This document shows positions 2,738 to 10,540 of a stretch of DNA of 10,540 nt, piece by piece. The stretch comes from Desulfonatronum sp. (GTDB lineage Bacteria; Desulfobacterota; Desulfovibrionia; Desulfovibrionales; Desulfonatronaceae): the NCBI GenBank assembly GCA_007127655.1, contig SKYX01000164.1, positions 1 through 10,540 of the forward strand. The letters run 5' to 3'. Below the pieces are notes generated by a model. That model was given only the letters and a program-made list of their open reading frames with translations. It was not told where the DNA came from and did not search any database. Position 1 is the stretch's first letter. The number at the start of each line of letters is the position of its first letter. The translations under genes and the position numbers were made by a program.

Positions 2738-2752
2738 AGGTCATTATGACCT
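2738..2752. promoter_or_regulatory. Palindromic operator of the toxin-antitoxin operon
   Basis: AGGTCAT-T-ATGACCT is a perfect 7-bp inverted repeat around one central base. It ends 5 bases before the AGGAGG ribosome-binding site of the antitoxin gene. A further half-site, TGACCT, lies at 2701-2706. Phd/YefM antitoxins, alone or with their toxin, typically repress their own promoter by binding such palindromes. The position fits, although no strong -35/-10 pair can be pointed to. Confidence 0.6.
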
Positions 2753-2772
2753 GTTTGAGGAGGATTTTAATT

Positions 2773-3051
2773 ATGCCGGAAGTGTCTATTGCTGTAACAA
2801 AAGGTCATCTGTCCGAGCTGATCGCCAAAAGCGCCTATGCCGGGGAGCGGTTCGTCATCACCAAGAGGAATAAACCGGTTGCCGCCCTGGTCAGCCTTGA
2901 AGATCTGCGGATCATTGAACAGCACGATCAGCGCCAGGGGCTTGCGTCCATTGTCGGCAAATGGAAGGATTTTGAAGAAGTGGGAGAGCGGATTGAAGAC
3001 CTGCGCCAAGTGCGAAACGATTCAGGAACACGAGCCGATGTTTCTCTTTGA
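2773..3051 (+). CDS. Phd/YefM-family (VapB-type) antitoxin
   Basis: 92 residues from the ATG at 2773. AGGAGG at 2758-2763 lies 9 bases upstream, so I rejected the in-frame ATG at 2746, which is inside the operator. The N-terminus (EVSIAVTKGHLSELIAKS, then GERFVITKRNKPVAALVSLE) is the Phd/YefM DNA-binding fold. The R/K-x-x-K-P-V-A-A-L-V strand is its most recognisable feature. The C-terminal part, from about residue 55, is charged and likely flexible, and should wrap and neutralise the toxin. The last 14 bases overlap the toxin gene, which implies translational coupling. Expected role: neutralises the VapC-like RNase made from the next gene and represses the operon through the palindrome at 2738-2752. 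Confidence 0.88.
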   Translation: MPEVSIAVTKGHLSELIAKSAYAGERFVITKRNKPVAALVSLEDLRIIEQHDQRQGLASIVGKWKDFEEVGERIEDLRQVRNDSGTRADVSL

Positions 3052-3439
3052 TACGGACGTCATCACCAACGTCCTGAAGAAACGACCCTCGAGGCCCTTG
3101 TTGCAGCGCCTTGCCCTGGTGCCAAGGAAGCAGCAGCATATCTCAACGGTCACCGTGACGGAGATCGTTTACGGCGCTATGAAGAGCACCCGGCCCGCGT
3201 ATCATCTCGAAAATCTCGAGAAGATTCTGTTGCCTTCCGTGGATGTCGTCGGCTTTGACGCAAAAGCGGCCTATGTCTGCGGACGCATCCGGGCAGAACT
3301 GGGACGCAAAGGCCGACCGCTGGATCTTGCGGACCTCCAAATCGCCGCGACAGCCATTGCGGAGAATTTCACCTTGATCACCGGGAACATAAGACATTTC
3401 AGCAGGATCGAGGAGCTGAGAGCGGAGAACTGGTTGTGA
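3038..3439 (+). CDS. VapC-like PIN-domain toxin (ribonuclease)
   Basis: 133 residues, normal for VapC. The start at 3038 is inside the antitoxin gene and is preceded by AGGA at 3024-3027. PIN-domain acidic residues are visible: D5 (and D7) in FLFDTDVITNVL, E42 in TVTVTEIVYGAM, and D96/D99 in LDLADLQIAATA. N117 in LITGNIRHF occupies the usual fourth position. They form a Mg2+-dependent active site. VapC toxins cleave tRNA or rRNA when the unstable antitoxin is lost. The particular target cannot be predicted. The gene overlaps its antitoxin by 14 bases, the normal order for such a cassette. All catalytic positions look intact, unlike the decayed genes on both sides, so the pair may be what keeps this patch in place. 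Confidence 0.88.
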   Translation: MFLFDTDVITNVLKKRPSRPLLQRLALVPRKQQHISTVTVTEIVYGAMKSTRPAYHLENLEKILLPSVDVVGFDAKAAYVCGRIRAELGRKGRPLDLADLQIAATAIAENFTLITGNIRHFSRIEELRAENWL

Positions 3440-5095: not shown

Positions 5096-6634
5096 ATGGC
5101 TGAGCAACGTGTTTTAGTGACCGGGGCTACCGGATACATTGGCGGGCGGCTGATCAAGAAGCTGCTGGAGCGGGGGCACGCGGTCACGGCCATGGCCCGC
5201 TCCCTGGGCAAGGTGGGGTGTCGGCCATGGGCTGGGCATCCGCTGGTGCAACTGGCCCAGGGAGACGTCATGGACCAGGCTTCTCTGGAGCGGGCCATGG
5301 AAGGTTGCACCGCGGCGTATTATCTGGTGCATTCAATGGCCCCAGGCTCCAAGGATTTCGCTTCGGCGGACAAAGTCGCCGCGGAGAACATGGCCCGAGC
5401 CGCCGAGAACCAGGGGCTTTCGCAGATCATCTACCTGGGAGGCCTGGGGGATGAGAGCGACGCGAATTTGAGCAAACACCTGCGCTCCCGATTGGAAGTG
5501 GCCAAAGTGTTGCGGGAGGGGCGTGTGCCTGTGACCTTCCTGCGGGCGGCCATGATTATCGGGTCGGGCAGTGCGTCGTTTGAAATCCTGCGCTATCTGA
5601 CCGAGCGTCTGCCGGTGATGATCACTCCGCGCTGGGTGCGCACCGAATGCCAGCCCATCGCCGTATCCAACGTGATCGAGTATCTTGCAGGCTGTCTGGA
5701 ACAACCGGAAACCTCTGGTCAGACATACGACATCGGCGGTCCTGACGTGCTCACCTATGAACAGATGTTTCAACTCTATGCCCAGATCGCCGGGTTGCGA
5801 CGCAGAGTCCTGATTCCGGTGCCACTGCTTACTCCACACCTTTCATCGCTCTGGATCAATTTTGTCACACCGATACCTACGGCTTTGGCCAAGCCTCTTG
5901 TTGTGGGGTTGCGCAACCGGGTTGTCTGCTCGGAGAATCGGATTCGGGAAATCATCCCCCAGCGGCTTTTGACCTGTCGGGAAGCTATTGTCACGGCGCT
6001 CCAGAAGGTCCAGCAACTGGACGTGGAAACCTGCTGGAGCGACGCCGGTTTTCAACCGCCTCCGGAATGGCTGGATTGCGGGGACGCCCCCTATGCCGGA
6101 GGCACGCTCCTGGGCTTGTCCTACCACATCAAGATCGAGGCGAAGCCGGAAGAGGTTTGGCCCGTGGTGGCCGCCCTGGGCGGGGAAACCGGCTGGTACT
6201 ATGGGGACTGGCTCTGGCGGTTGCGCGGGTTCATGGACCGGGTGGTCGGCGGAGTGGGGCTGCGGCGCGGACGCCGGCATCCAACGGAAATCCGCGTCGG
6301 CGACGCCCTGGACTTCTGGCGGGTGCTCCAACTGGAACCTGGGCGTCGGTTGCGCCTGCTGGCGGAAATGAAGACACCAGGGGAAGCCCTGCTGGATTTC
6401 GAACTGCGTCCCGTCGGACCGGACGGAGAGCATACGGAAATCATTGAACGTTCCCGATTTTTGCCAAAAGGGCTGTGGGGCCTGGCCTACTGGTACGCCA
6501 CCTATCCGTTCCACATCCTGATCTTCAAGGGCATGCTGGAAAAAATCGCCCATCAGACCGGCCGGGCCGCCGGGCCGGCCAAGCCGATGCCACCACAGGC
6601 CGCCACGAGTTGCGCTTTGCCCGGTGGACAATGA
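5096..6634 (+). CDS. SDR-family NAD(P)-binding protein fused to DUF2867 (YbjT-like)
   Basis: 512 residues; the start is fixed by AAGGAGA at 5084-5090. Residues 6-19 (VLVTGATGYIGGRL) are the Rossmann dinucleotide loop in the atypical-SDR form TGATGYIG. The canonical YxxxK catalytic pair is not obvious, as in NmrA-like and SDR5 proteins that bind the cofactor without a clear dehydrogenase site. The SDR part extends to about residue 300. From about 340 to 490 a second domain (LLGLSYHIKIEAKPEEVWP, WYYGDWLWRLRGFMDRVVGG, then WYATYPFHILIFKGML) matches the DUF2867 domain seen in E. coli YbjT and relatives. The C-terminal 25 residues are proline- and alanine-rich and likely disordered. Probably cytosolic or peripheral to the membrane; substrate unknown. 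The gene stands alone: divergent on the left, and followed by a REP-like hairpin. Confidence 0.85.
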   Translation: MAEQRVLVTGATGYIGGRLIKKLLERGHAVTAMARSLGKVGCRPWAGHPLVQLAQGDVMDQASLERAMEGCTAAYYLVHSMAPGSKDFASADKVAAENMARAAENQGLSQIIYLGGLGDESDANLSKHLRSRLEVAKVLREGRVPVTFLRAAMIIGSGSASFEILRYLTERLPVMITPRWVRTECQPIAVSNVIEYLAGCLEQPETSGQTYDIGGPDVLTYEQMFQLYAQIAGLRRRVLIPVPLLTPHLSSLWINFVTPIPTALAKPLVVGLRNRVVCSENRIREIIPQRLLTCREAIVTALQKVQQLDVETCWSDAGFQPPPEWLDCGDAPYAGGTLLGLSYHIKIEAKPEEVWPVVAALGGETGWYYGDWLWRLRGFMDRVVGGVGLRRGRRHPTEIRVGDALDFWRVLQLEPGRRLRLLAEMKTPGEALLDFELRPVGPDGEHTEIIERSRFLPKGLWGLAYWYATYPFHILIFKGMLEKIAHQTGRAAGPAKPMPPQAATSCALPGGQ

Positions 6635-6636
6635 CG

Positions 6637-6670
6637 TGCTGGATGCGGCTGTCGCCTTATCCGGCCTACA
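6637..6670 (+). repeat. REP-like palindromic element after the SDR gene
   Basis: Two bases after the SDR stop codon lies TGCTGGATGCGGC, then TGT, then CGCCTTATCCGGCCTACA. This closely resembles the enterobacterial REP (PU) consensus, in which a GCCGGATGCGGC arm is followed by CGCCTTATCCGGCCTAC. It folds as a hairpin: CTGGAT pairs with ATCCGG (one G-U), GC faces TT as the usual internal mismatch, and GGC pairs with GCC around a TGTC loop. In enterobacteria such elements sit just 3' of genes, protect mRNA ends and may bind gyrase or IHF; their spread is tied to RAYT transposases. I see no RAYT gene here. Role here inferred: mRNA 3'-end protection or attenuation between the SDR gene and the next operon. 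Confidence 0.6.
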
Positions 6671-6710
6671 AAGCTGAGTGGTGGAGGGCTTGTCCGGGCT
6701 GGTTTTCCAA

Positions 6711-6742
6711 CCGTGAACTGTGAACCCTGAACCGTGAACCCC
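6711..6742. repeat. Heptanucleotide tandem tract (four CCGTGAA-type units)
   Basis: Four consecutive 7-base units, CCGTGAA, CTGTGAA, CCCTGAA and CCGTGAA, followed by CCCC. On the opposite strand every unit starts GTT (GTTCACG and variants), the same GTTNNNN phase as the arms of the palindrome at 3569-3632. Only one arm is present here. It lies in the leader of the ATP-grasp operon, about 75 bases upstream of the start codon. Confidence 0.7.
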
Positions 6743-6815
6743 AAAACGATTGACCTCACCATGGAAAGGGCCTACCGAGAGCTCATTTTATCCGGATGCC
6801 GCGGAGGGCGAGATT

Positions 6816-8234
6816 ATGCTCATGGAGGACGATGTCTTTTTTTCGGACATCAAGCTGGACCCTGAGGTTTCGTATTTTCTGTACATCGGTGAAATCAAGA
6901 CGGACTGCCTGAACCAGTTTGTCAAGGAGACCCTGTCCAAGATCCACGGAAGGCCTTTTGATTTCATCTCCATCCTGTCGGACGTGCTGGATTCCTACCC
7001 GCACAAGAACACCCTGGTGATCAACCCCATGGCCCGTGAACTCTACCGGGCCAAAGGGCGCAAGGTCAGTTTTCGGATCGCCCCGAGGACCTTCGCTTCC
7101 ATGGTCTCGGCTTCCGCCGCGGTCAACGACTTGGTCCGGCAACTCCTGGACAAGCAGGGACAGGTGTTTATCCACGTTTTTGAATCCGTTCCGGAGTTGA
7201 CCCTGGCTTTGATTCCCGACGTGCGCATCCTCGGCCCTAGCGGGCACATCGCCAATATCTGGAATAACAAGCTGTACCAGTTACAGATGCTCAAGGGCAC
7301 GGCCCCGCTGATCGACTATCGGGTTTGCCCGGATGCGGAGTACATGCTGGAAACGGCACGGGAACTCTGGGGGGAATGGCCGGACGGGATTTTCGTCAGC
7401 CAGCCCTATTCCGCGGCCGGGGTGAACAGTTTCCTGGCCACGACTCAGGAGGAGATCGAGACCAAAGCCGCCCACCTCAAGGGGAAGTTCTTCATCAGCC
7501 GCTATATTCCCCACCTTGATGATCCCACGGTGCTTGGGGTCGTGGCCGGTCCCGCGGACGTGTTCATCGCGGCCATCGCGGACCAGGAAATTCAGGACGG
7601 GAACAAGTTTCGCGGATCGACCTTTCCGTCGGCACTGTCTTGCGCCTTGCAGCAGGAGCTTCGGGAGATCACCCGCAAGGTTGGGCAGGTCATGGGTCGG
7701 AGCGGGTATCGCGGGATTTTCGGCTGCGATTACGTTGTCGACGACCAGGGCCGAATTTATTTCGTGGAGGTCAATGCCCGGAAACAGGGCACCACCATGG
7801 AAATGTGCTGTACCCTGGAAAACGCCCTGCCCGTGGACACGCCCGGCTTGCTGGAACTGGAGTACCACGCCGTGATGCACAACCGTTTTCCGGAAAACAA
7901 GATGGAAATCGTCGACGCTCTGGGCGACATCTGTTGGCGGACTTACAACTACAAGCTGGACGCGGAAGCCGAGACCAATCAGTTCGTGCCCGTGGACGAG
8001 GATGAACGAACCTTGTTCCGGGAGGTCAAGGCCGGCAGGCAGGACCACGGCGTGATCGTGGTGGAGCATGTCGGCGGCAGGCTTGCCGTGCAACCCGGGA
8101 CGTTCCTGGGCCGCGTGGTGGCCGTTGGCCACAGCCGGGCGCAGTTGGAGGAGGATATCCGTCTGGGCATCCAGCAGCTCAAGGAATCCATTTTCGATAC
8201 GCTTCAGAACCAAACCACAACGAAGGATGATTGA
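6816..8234 (+). CDS. ATP-grasp domain protein, probable carboxylate-amine ligase (first gene of the operon)
   Basis: 472 residues from the ATG at 6816. GGAGGG at 6803-6808, 7 bases upstream, decides the start over an in-frame TTG at 6750. Residues 1-135 form an N-terminal domain I do not recognise. From about 139 the ATP-grasp fold begins with LGPSGHIANIWNNKLYQLQM; K152 is a candidate nucleotide-binding lysine. It closes with the Mg-ATP motif YFVEVNARKQGTTME (E318, N320, R322), D305 lying shortly before in GCDYVV. About 130 further residues follow, including GRLAVQPGTFLGRVVAVGHS. ATP-grasp enzymes activate a carboxylate as acyl phosphate and join it to an amine or thiol. The substrate is not predictable from motifs I can see. 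The gene ends 2 bases before the radical-SAM gene, so the two are almost certainly one transcript. A carboxylase role is possible but no biotin-attachment site is visible. Confidence 0.8.
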   Translation: MLMEDDVFFSDIKLDPEVSYFLYIGEIKTDCLNQFVKETLSKIHGRPFDFISILSDVLDSYPHKNTLVINPMARELYRAKGRKVSFRIAPRTFASMVSASAAVNDLVRQLLDKQGQVFIHVFESVPELTLALIPDVRILGPSGHIANIWNNKLYQLQMLKGTAPLIDYRVCPDAEYMLETARELWGEWPDGIFVSQPYSAAGVNSFLATTQEEIETKAAHLKGKFFISRYIPHLDDPTVLGVVAGPADVFIAAIADQEIQDGNKFRGSTFPSALSCALQQELREITRKVGQVMGRSGYRGIFGCDYVVDDQGRIYFVEVNARKQGTTMEMCCTLENALPVDTPGLLELEYHAVMHNRFPENKMEIVDALGDICWRTYNYKLDAEAETNQFVPVDEDERTLFREVKAGRQDHGVIVVEHVGGRLAVQPGTFLGRVVAVGHSRAQLEEDIRLGIQQLKESIFDTLQNQTTTKDD

Positions 8235-8236
8235 TC

Positions 8237-9823
8237 ATGAGCAGCACGACGCCGCATGTCTTGGATACGTTCACCGGGGATTTTTTTGAAGACTTATTTG
8301 TCGCCGAGGACGATTCGTCCGCATCGGAAGAACAGCGCGCCGCAGTGGCCGAGTTGAAGAACACGGCCTTGACCCAGGACCTCACTGGTCCCATTGTCGC
8401 ATTGTTCGCGGAATTGGCGCGGATTCATGGCGAGCAGGGCACGACACCGGAGCAACTTGGCCTGACCAGGGAGGAACTTGTCATTTTGGCGGACAAGCAT
8501 GCCAGGCTGGATGAGCACGGCGTGACCGTGGGCGGTCGGGTGGGCAAAGCCCAGCCTATTGTCCGGGAGGCCAAGGCCCGGATCGCCGATTACCTGGAGC
8601 GCAACGCGGTTGAGGCGCCCAGCGGCATCGAGGTTTGGGAGCGGATTCTGGAGAACCAGGCCCGAATCAAGGGCGTCCTGGGCATGACCGACGAGGACTG
8701 GCACTCCTACTCCGGGCAGTTGCGCCATGCCGTGGAGGACGTGGATGCGCTGGCCTCGGTTATCGATCTGCCAGCCAAGGCCGTGGAAGAGGTCCGGAGG
8801 GTCACCCAAACCTACCGGATGCGCCTGACCCCATACTATGCCAGTTTGATTCTGCCGGACCGGAGCAACGACCCCGTGTTGCTTCAAGCCGTGCCCACCG
8901 CGGAAATGGTCGACAACGCCGGGGTGGAGATTCCGCCGGTGGCCGCGGATCATTCCCCGGCCCGGTTGATCGACCAATTTTATCCCCGGGTGGTGACCAT
9001 CAAGGCCACCAATATGTGCGCCATGTACTGCACCCACTGTCTGCGCATCGCGCACATCGGCGCCAAGGATCGGATCTACAGCAAAGAAGCCTACGGCGAG
9101 GCTCTGGACTATATCCGGGCCAACCCGGAAATCCGGGACGTCCTGGTTACCGGCGGGGACGCTTTTGTGCTGCCCAACTCCATGCTGGAATGGCTGCTGG
9201 GTGAGCTGGACTCCATCGAGCATGTGCGGATGAAGCGCCTGGGCACCAGGATTCCGGTCACCACGCCGCAGCGGGTGGACGAAAAATTGCTGGACATCCT
9301 GGAGGCCAGCAACGCGCGCAAGCCGGTGCGCGTGGTTACCCAGATCAACACGGCCCAGGAGATCACTCCAGTCTCCAAGGCTGCGTTCAAGGCGATTTCC
9401 GGGCGGGTCATGGCGGTGATGAACCAGGCCGTGCTGCTCAAGGGCATCAACGACACGAAGATCAAGATGTGGAAGCTGTGCGAAACCATCCAGGAGGCCT
9501 ACGTTCGCCCCTACTACGTGTTCAATTGCAGCTACCGCAACCCACAGTTCACCCATTTGCGCGTTCCCGTGGCCACGGGCCAGGAGATCATCGAGAGCAT
9601 GTACGGCAACATCTCCGGCGACGCAATCCCCCGGTACATCGCCACAGCCGGGGGCAAGATCCCCCTGCACAAGACCAACCTTCTCGGCCGCAAGGACGGC
9701 AACCTGCGGATGCAAAAGCCCTGGAACGAGGAGCGGGTCATGTACCCGGATGCCGATTTTCAGGAATACAACCGGGAAGACTTCGGATTCGCCAGGTATC
9801 GGCCCGACTCCAAAGAAGAGTGA
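8237..9823 (+). CDS. KamA-family radical SAM / PLP aminomutase, not a canonical lysine 2,3-aminomutase
   Basis: 528 residues from the ATG at 8237, with AAGGA at 8223-8227. The radical SAM motif CAMYCTHC gives C261, C265 and C268, in the CxxxCxxC spacing and the TNMCAMYC context of KamA. The PLP lysine is K474 in ATAGGKIPL, equivalent to the PGGGGK motif of lysine 2,3-aminomutase. Family landmarks are intact (TPYYASLI before the cluster; YVRPYYVF near 425). The two aspartates that bind the lysine side chain in the clostridial enzyme (YQCD and VIDAPGGGGK contexts) are not conserved: the regions read FNCSYR (S432) and YIATAGGK (T470). Residues 1-149 are a mostly helical N-terminal extension absent from ordinary KamA. 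The reaction is probably a 2,3-amino shift producing a beta-amino acid; the substrate is unlikely to be lysine. Middle gene of a tight operon. Confidence 0.85.
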   Translation: MSSTTPHVLDTFTGDFFEDLFVAEDDSSASEEQRAAVAELKNTALTQDLTGPIVALFAELARIHGEQGTTPEQLGLTREELVILADKHARLDEHGVTVGGRVGKAQPIVREAKARIADYLERNAVEAPSGIEVWERILENQARIKGVLGMTDEDWHSYSGQLRHAVEDVDALASVIDLPAKAVEEVRRVTQTYRMRLTPYYASLILPDRSNDPVLLQAVPTAEMVDNAGVEIPPVAADHSPARLIDQFYPRVVTIKATNMCAMYCTHCLRIAHIGAKDRIYSKEAYGEALDYIRANPEIRDVLVTGGDAFVLPNSMLEWLLGELDSIEHVRMKRLGTRIPVTTPQRVDEKLLDILEASNARKPVRVVTQINTAQEITPVSKAAFKAISGRVMAVMNQAVLLKGINDTKIKMWKLCETIQEAYVRPYYVFNCSYRNPQFTHLRVPVATGQEIIESMYGNISGDAIPRYIATAGGKIPLHKTNLLGRKDGNLRMQKPWNEERVMYPDADFQEYNREDFGFARYRPDSKEE

Positions 9824-9827
9824 CCTC

Positions 9828-10540
9828 ATGCGCGATCAAATCATCGCCTACCTGGCGGAAAGGGAAGCCGAAGCCGTTGATCTGCTGCGGCGCTTGGTGG
9901 AGATCCAGAGCGGCAGCCGAAACAAGCCGGGCCTGGACCTTATGGCCGTGGTCATGGGCGAGGTCCTGGGACAGGTCTTGCCGGTCGTTCGAATCCTGCC
10001 CTTTGCCGACTACGGAAACATGGTCCAGGCCTCCTCCGGGCCGTGGACCACCGGCGAATCCGGCTTCGTCCTGGTGGGGCACATGGATACCGTGTTCCCC
10101 GCGGACACGTCGTTCACCGCTTTTCAGGAACACGGCGACATCTGTCGCGGGCCCGGAGTTTACGACATGAAGGGTGGTCTGGTGGTGGGCGTTTACGCGC
10201 TCAAGGCGCTCCGGGACCTTGGCGCTTTGGATGCCATGCCGGTGACGTTTTTGTGTAATTCCGACGAGGAAATCGGCTCCCCGGCTTCCCGGTCCTGGAT
10301 CGAGGAGCAAGCCGGGCAGTGTCTGGCCTGCTTGGTGTTTGAAGGCGGAGGGCTGAACCGGGAGGTGGTCACGGGTCGCAAGGGCAGGCTGGGGTTGCGG
10401 GTGACGGTCCGCGGAAGGGCCGGGCACGCGGCCAAAAGCGGCCCCAAAGCCAGCGCGATTCTGGAGCTGGCGCACAAGATCATGGCCCTGGAAGCCTTGA
10501 ACAACGACGCGGAAATCACCGTGAACGTCGGCCACGTGGA
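9828..10540 (+). CDS. M20-family zinc metallopeptidase, N-terminal part (runs off the right edge)
   Basis: The first 237 codons are present. The ATG at 9828 is 4 bases after the previous stop and GAAGAG at 9815-9820 can serve as ribosome-binding site. The metal-site motifs of M20 carboxypeptidase G2/ArgE/DapE relatives are clear: H85 and D87 in GHMDTVFP, D113 in YDMKGG (bridging), E147/E148 in SDEEIGS (general base and ligand), and E172 in VFEGGG. The lid dimerisation domain begins near residue 185 (GRKGRLGLRVTVRGRAGHAA). No signal peptide: the protein starts MRDQIIAYLAERE, so it is cytosolic. Members cleave dipeptides or N-acyl amino acids. In this operon it most likely hydrolyses or edits the product of the ATP-grasp ligase. 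The last metal ligand (a C-terminal His) lies beyond the window. Confidence 0.88.
   Translation, partial: MRDQIIAYLAEREAEAVDLLRRLVEIQSGSRNKPGLDLMAVVMGEVLGQVLPVVRILPFADYGNMVQASSGPWTTGESGFVLVGHMDTVFPADTSFTAFQEHGDICRGPGVYDMKGGLVVGVYALKALRDLGALDAMPVTFLCNSDEEIGSPASRSWIEEQAGQCLACLVFEGGGLNREVVTGRKGRLGLRVTVRGRAGHAAKSGPKASAILELAHKIMALEALNNDAEITVNVGHV

Follow-up and report, generated by a model that had tools for sequence, protein, structure and literature searches.

A conserved ATP-grasp ligase, radical SAM aminomutase and M20 peptidase gene trio in sulfate-reducing bacteria as a candidate route to beta-glutamate and its amides

The window analyzed here, 10,540 nucleotides in length, is one whole contig (SKYX01000164.1) of the draft genome of Desulfonatronum sp. 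(GCA_007127655.1; 84 % completeness) and ends in three plus-strand genes separated by 2 and 4 bases: (i) an ATP-grasp ligase (6816–8234; 472 aa), (ii) a KamA-family radical S-adenosylmethionine (SAM) aminomutase related to glutamate 2,3-aminomutase (8237–9823; 528 aa), and (iii) an M20 peptidase (9828–10540; 237 codons). All three start with ATG; in case of the ligase, the mechanically called reading frame opens earlier at a TTG (6750), and the ATG at 6816 was taken as start. As judged by eye, ribosome-binding sites lie 7 bases ahead of the ligase (GGAGGG, 6803–6808) and 9 bases ahead of the mutase (GAAGGA, 8222–8227), while that of the peptidase is weaker. A preliminary description of the DNA had proposed a three-gene operon of these families, each gene with its own ribosome-binding site and intact catalytic motifs; re-reading of the window and family searches bear out the operon and the families, and the claim on the ribosome-binding sites holds well for the first two genes only. 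Since the contig ends there, the peptidase gene is incomplete (about 384 codons in relatives), and its remainder was not found in its own, incomplete genome.

Relatives were gathered with a 22-sequence mutase alignment, retaining the best 80 of 90 loci in the genome collection. Going by their labels, these belong chiefly to Desulfobacterota (Desulfovibrionales, Desulfobacteraceae, Desulfobulbaceae and kin); outliers are single metagenome-assembled genomes labelled Deferribacteres, SAR324 and Brocadiaceae and two labelled Spirochaetes. The order ligase-mutase-peptidase is found at 47 of the 80 loci and, comprising the same three families each time, exceeds chance association. Ligase and mutase occur without the peptidase at 12 loci, mutase and peptidase without a ligase directly upstream at 10 (the ligase being located about 0.7 kb further upstream in L074 and L079, and inverted and downstream in L085), and the mutase alone at 4; 7 loci are truncated by contig ends. 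Among 150 genomes of the order, 37 harbour the ligase, 34 the mutase and 33 both, counting damaged copies in G391 and G050 as present. Only the ligase is found in G036, G048, G067 and G059 (the latter a contig fragment), only the mutase in G030. Thus, the trio is not confined to one strain. The damaged copies are either broken or mis-assembled: the mutase of G391 is split into two pieces in different frames (contig C1, about 1518516–1520068), and stops interrupt ligase and mutase of G050 (contig C9, about 71913–74801). Six of 297 genomes of the phylum contain the ligase. It is accompanied by a trio-type mutase in the window's own genome and G112, by a glutamate-type mutase in G157 and G232, and in the other two by a B12-binding radical SAM protein beside it (G048, assigned by Pfam; G036, assigned by eye from a similar sequence).

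The aminomutase belongs to the KamA family (TIGR00238, 240.3 bits with a threshold of 199.2) and possesses the CxxxCxxC iron-sulfur motif (C261, C265, C268; 9017..9040, plus strand) and the lysine binding pyridoxal phosphate (PLP; K474, 9656..9658, plus strand; equivalent to K337 of lysine 2,3-aminomutase by alignment). Neither the cluster cysteines nor Arg270 or Lys474 vary among the 80 rows compared (the window and 79 of the 80 loci; L086 was left out), in agreement with the intact motifs described before. Among the NCBIfam subfamily models, that for glutamate 2,3-aminomutase (TIGR04368) scores best with 352 bits, followed by lysine (TIGR03820, 292 bits) and arginine (235 bits), all below their own cut-offs (650 for glutamate, 525 for lysine). 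Single TGA codons had raised the idea of selenocysteine, but these are ordinary stop codons at the gene ends.

The substrate pocket deviates from the lysine as well as the glutamate type. Lysine 2,3-aminomutase binds the epsilon-amino group by Asp293 and Asp330, and Asp occupies both positions in 11 other KamA loci compared. The window protein has Ser432 and Thr470 instead; Ser432 is present in 80/80 rows, as is the nearby Arg434 (Ser432 to Arg434, 9530..9538, plus strand), and at the second position 78 rows have Thr, the remaining 2 Ala. In 17/17 glutamate-type rows (L156, L163 and 15 fusion proteins, near-copies included), Lys at the Asp293 position, which we take to be equivalent to Lys332 of glutamate 2,3-aminomutase, is combined with Thr at the Asp330 position. 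The enzyme of Clostridioides difficile, reportedly that of Ruzicka and Frey (2007), presumably has Lys and Asn at these sites, thus differing from the present rows in the second one. The trio mutase also differs from glutamate 2,3-aminomutase by about 100 extra N-terminal residues and a shorter loop preceding the PLP lysine. With lysine 2,3-aminomutase (AblA) it shares the KamA family, the cluster motif, the PLP lysine and the product class of beta-amino acids. However, the AblA-AblB route to N-epsilon-acetyl-beta-lysine employs an acetyltransferase where an ATP-grasp ligase is found here, and Asp293 is replaced in 80/80 rows. No acetyltransferase was present in the typed part of the recurrent neighbour clusters; for this reason and on account of the pocket residues, the lysine route was rejected. 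The name lysine 2,3-aminomutase, used by some sources for the trio mutases, seems to be wrong.

A phylogenetic tree of 44 rows included 24 trio-type mutases, namely that of the window and those of 23 of the 80 loci. They form one clade (100/100), which has a long stem and the glutamate-type clade as its sister group (99/94); some of the other rows are on long branches and their placement is uncertain. In two other lineages (L156 in G157, L163 in G232), genes of the same ligase and M20 families surround, in the same order, a glutamate-type mutase scoring 632 and 605 bits, respectively, against the TIGR04368 cut-off of 650. Moreover, ligase and mutase of L163 constitute a single open frame, and a search with this fusion retrieved 15 protein clusters (915–957 aa) containing both domains, all 15 with the glutamate-type pocket Lys. 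The fusion and the finding that either mutase type may be located between these partners represent the strongest evidence linking the ligase to glutamate-type chemistry. The best-scoring subfamily, the sister clade and these shared neighbours all point to glutamate, so that the substrate is probably glutamate and the product beta-glutamate. One may object that a pocket unlike both known types and a score of 352 of 650 bits would suit a dipeptide or an amino acid other than glutamate, and a pathway unrelated to beta-glutamate. We consider this quite unlikely for an enzyme sister to, and gene-swapped with, glutamate-type mutases, the more so as relatives of the ligase, the peptidase and the linked transport receptor all handle glutamate.

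Further KamA-family genes were encountered. In L091, L104 and L120 (Desulfonatronospira, Desulfonatronovibrio), a second, distinct one is divergently oriented upstream of the ligase. Its product is distant from the trio mutases in the tree, where it clusters with L063 (100/100), another KamA protein encoded in the window's genome, and has TIGR04368 as top NCBIfam model as well (219 of 650 bits). Yet another KamA-family protein of the window's genome (L062; G000, contig C248) carries Glu in place of Asp293, and the loop preceding its PLP lysine is unusual.

Assignment of the ligase to the ATP-grasp superfamily is based on a domain match in the family search and on the complete ATP-grasp fold of an AlphaFold2 model (pLDDT 86.8, pTM 0.87). 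The nearest solved sequence is BesA, an L-propargylglycine--L-glutamate ligase, which belongs to another pathway and yields a gamma-glutamyl dipeptide intermediate. The match is weak (E 8e-8, 35 bits), and the BesA model NF042917 assigns the window ligase 28.8 bits at a cut-off of 750, placing it outside that family. In two Desulfovibrionaceae genomes (L164, 7977–10980; L165, about 6258–9397), the ligase adjoins a B12-binding radical SAM protein (DUF4070) and no aminomutase; the former is perhaps another tailoring enzyme acting on a similar kind of substrate.

The peptidase is composed of Peptidase_M20 with M20_dimer. The metal ligands and the catalytic Glu of M20 enzymes (H85, D87, D113, E147, E148, E172) are conserved in 21/21 rows, and H353 in the 20/20 rows long enough to include it. 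Carboxypeptidase G2 is by far the nearest relative among solved proteins (1.2e-56 in a profile search; next family 5.5e-24), and PRK06133 matches with 200 of 349 bits. Equivalents of H229, N275 and R324 of carboxypeptidase G2 are retained; Lys208 is not, with an invariant Arg-Lys pair (184–185) close by. Specificity for C-terminal glutamate is putative. Unlike carboxypeptidase G2, the trio peptidase has no secretion signal evident by eye.

Transport genes accompany many of the 80 loci within 8 kb, namely those for a TAXI receptor (29 loci), a TRAP permease (31) and a peptide-type ABC receptor (6), as well as a GntR-FCD regulator (10). One cluster (c6) proved by tblastn to be an antisense frame over the TAXI gene and was discarded. 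The principal residues by which VcGluP binds glutamate (Y45, S75, Q93 and E125) are conserved in 27/27 aligned trio-linked TAXI receptors; Y45 and Q93 are named as the key residues in PMC11574862, occurring in 78 % and 54 % of its TAXI set, respectively. No close TAXI orthologue was found in the window's own, incomplete genome. These importers and regulators, together with genes for an enoyl-CoA hydratase and an acyl-CoA ligase just upstream of the G157 locus, might indicate catabolic salvage, i.e., reconversion of imported beta-glutamate or glutamyl peptides to glutamate for growth. An ATP-spending ligase would be odd in a purely degradative route, however, and no recurring catabolic enzyme was found in the typed part of the recurrent neighbour clusters. 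Such a function is improbable.

A gamma-glutamyltranspeptidase gene is present at 7 of the 15 loci lacking a ligase within 8 kb and at none of the 65 with ligase (Fisher p 2e-6, the rows not being independent). Five of these 15 loci (L077, L103, L121, L142, L143) have less than 450 bases of contig upstream, so that their ligase may lie off the contig; excluding them leaves 7 of 10. In case of L142, the same genome (G022) apparently has a ligase on another contig. In the 11 transpeptidase family members found, TTH is retained where the catalytic threonine is expected, with no signal peptide evident by eye at the printed starts, some of which are uncertain. Five of the 7 transpeptidase loci also encode a peptide-type ABC receptor. 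On the tree, the ligase/transpeptidase label must have changed 4 times, with well-supported branches demanding at least 3 of these changes; thus, the pattern probably does not reflect one inherited event. Judging from this distribution, both enzymes seem to have one type of target bond in common, a glutamyl amide. The distribution also gives room to a reversed sequence of steps, in which the ligase would form a gamma-glutamyl amide, the mutase isomerise its glutamyl part and the M20 enzyme free beta-glutamate, the amine serving as a reusable handle. The gamma-glutamyl intermediate known from BesA would fit this sequence, as would the absence from the trio mutases of the Lys thought to grip a free side-chain carboxylate. 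On the other hand, mutases that keep this Lys also occur fused to such a ligase or next to it, suiting free glutamate, Arg434 could stand in for it in the trio mutases, and the short upstream contigs reduce the weight of the ligase-less loci. Formation of the conjugate ahead of the mutase reaction is on balance rather unlikely.

Two other features of the window were noted. The gene just upstream (5096–6634) encodes an NAD-binding short-chain dehydrogenase/reductase joined to DUF2867 and is likewise present at four loci of the same genus; in these and the window, nothing was seen tying it to the proposed pathway. A possible toxin-antitoxin pair, as judged by eye only, is located at 2746–3439, where a small antitoxin-like gene precedes a PIN-domain-like one.

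Gene order, conservation, fusion and catalytic motifs being established, the following scheme is proposed, to which we assign a probability of about 0.5 as a whole. Glutamate, likely the mutase substrate, would be supplied by the glutamate-type TAXI-TRAP importer linked to the trio in many relatives. The radical SAM mutase would convert L-glutamate to beta-glutamate (3-aminoglutarate) by migration of the amino group from carbon 2 to carbon 3. A carboxylate of beta-glutamate would be coupled by the ligase to an amine, so that a beta-glutamyl dipeptide or amide is formed. The M20 enzyme would cleave the beta-glutamyl amide bond and thereby recover the compound. We infer this order of steps, as well as the amine partner and the cellular role considered below. 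The preliminary description had envisaged a system making and taking back a beta-amino-acid amide; this outline fits the conserved trio and the 15 fusion clusters, and the amino acid it left unnamed is now most likely glutamate. Its parallel to carnosine metabolism extends to the enzyme classes and not beyond.

Several known systems combine parts of the trio. In pyrrolysine synthesis, the KamA-like mutase PylB feeds the ATP-grasp ligase PylC; substrate and mutase reaction differ, however, and an M20 peptidase is absent there. PylC was not among the ligase sequence matches listed. By analogy to PylB-PylC, and because the peptidase resembles an enzyme acting on C-terminal glutamate, the amine partner may be an amino acid such as glutamate, which is a guess. 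An ATP-grasp maker and a metallopeptidase are also paired in the operon for the osmolyte N-acetylglutaminylglutamine amide (NAGGN) and in carnosine synthase/carnosinase, but these systems involve other compounds and no radical SAM aminomutase. The component families are known. Their combination, in which a recycling peptidase joins the mutase-ligase pair, did not come up in the open-licence papers searched, nor did any paper on the trio itself.

We know of no settled cellular role of bacterial glutamate 2,3-aminomutase. Beta-aminoglutarate is reported to occur in anoxic marine sediments, for which searches of open-licence papers gave no support. Beta-glutamate and beta-glutamine are among the osmolytes of methanogens, in which early nuclear magnetic resonance evidence excluded an aminomutase route to beta-glutamate, as stated in PMC1224877. 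The trio would therefore constitute a distinct, bacterial route, and a role in osmoprotection is plausible in view of the methanogen osmolytes. In case of Moorella, beta-glutamate was proposed as a protectant from expression of a glutamate 2,3-aminomutase gene (PMC7835215). One may speculate, with considerable doubt, that a beta-glutamyl dipeptide (perhaps beta-glutamyl-glutamate) serves sulfate reducers as a nitrogen store or as a compatible solute of a new class, that it is synthesized by a mutase-ligase pair similar to PylBC and recycled by the peptidase of the trio, and that this is a source of the beta-aminoglutarate in anoxic marine sediments. The conserved trio in sulfate reducers, together with the natural fusions, would represent a concrete bacterial route to beta-glutamate and its amides, and may provide a handle on the organisms that make or remove beta-glutamate compounds in anoxic sediments.

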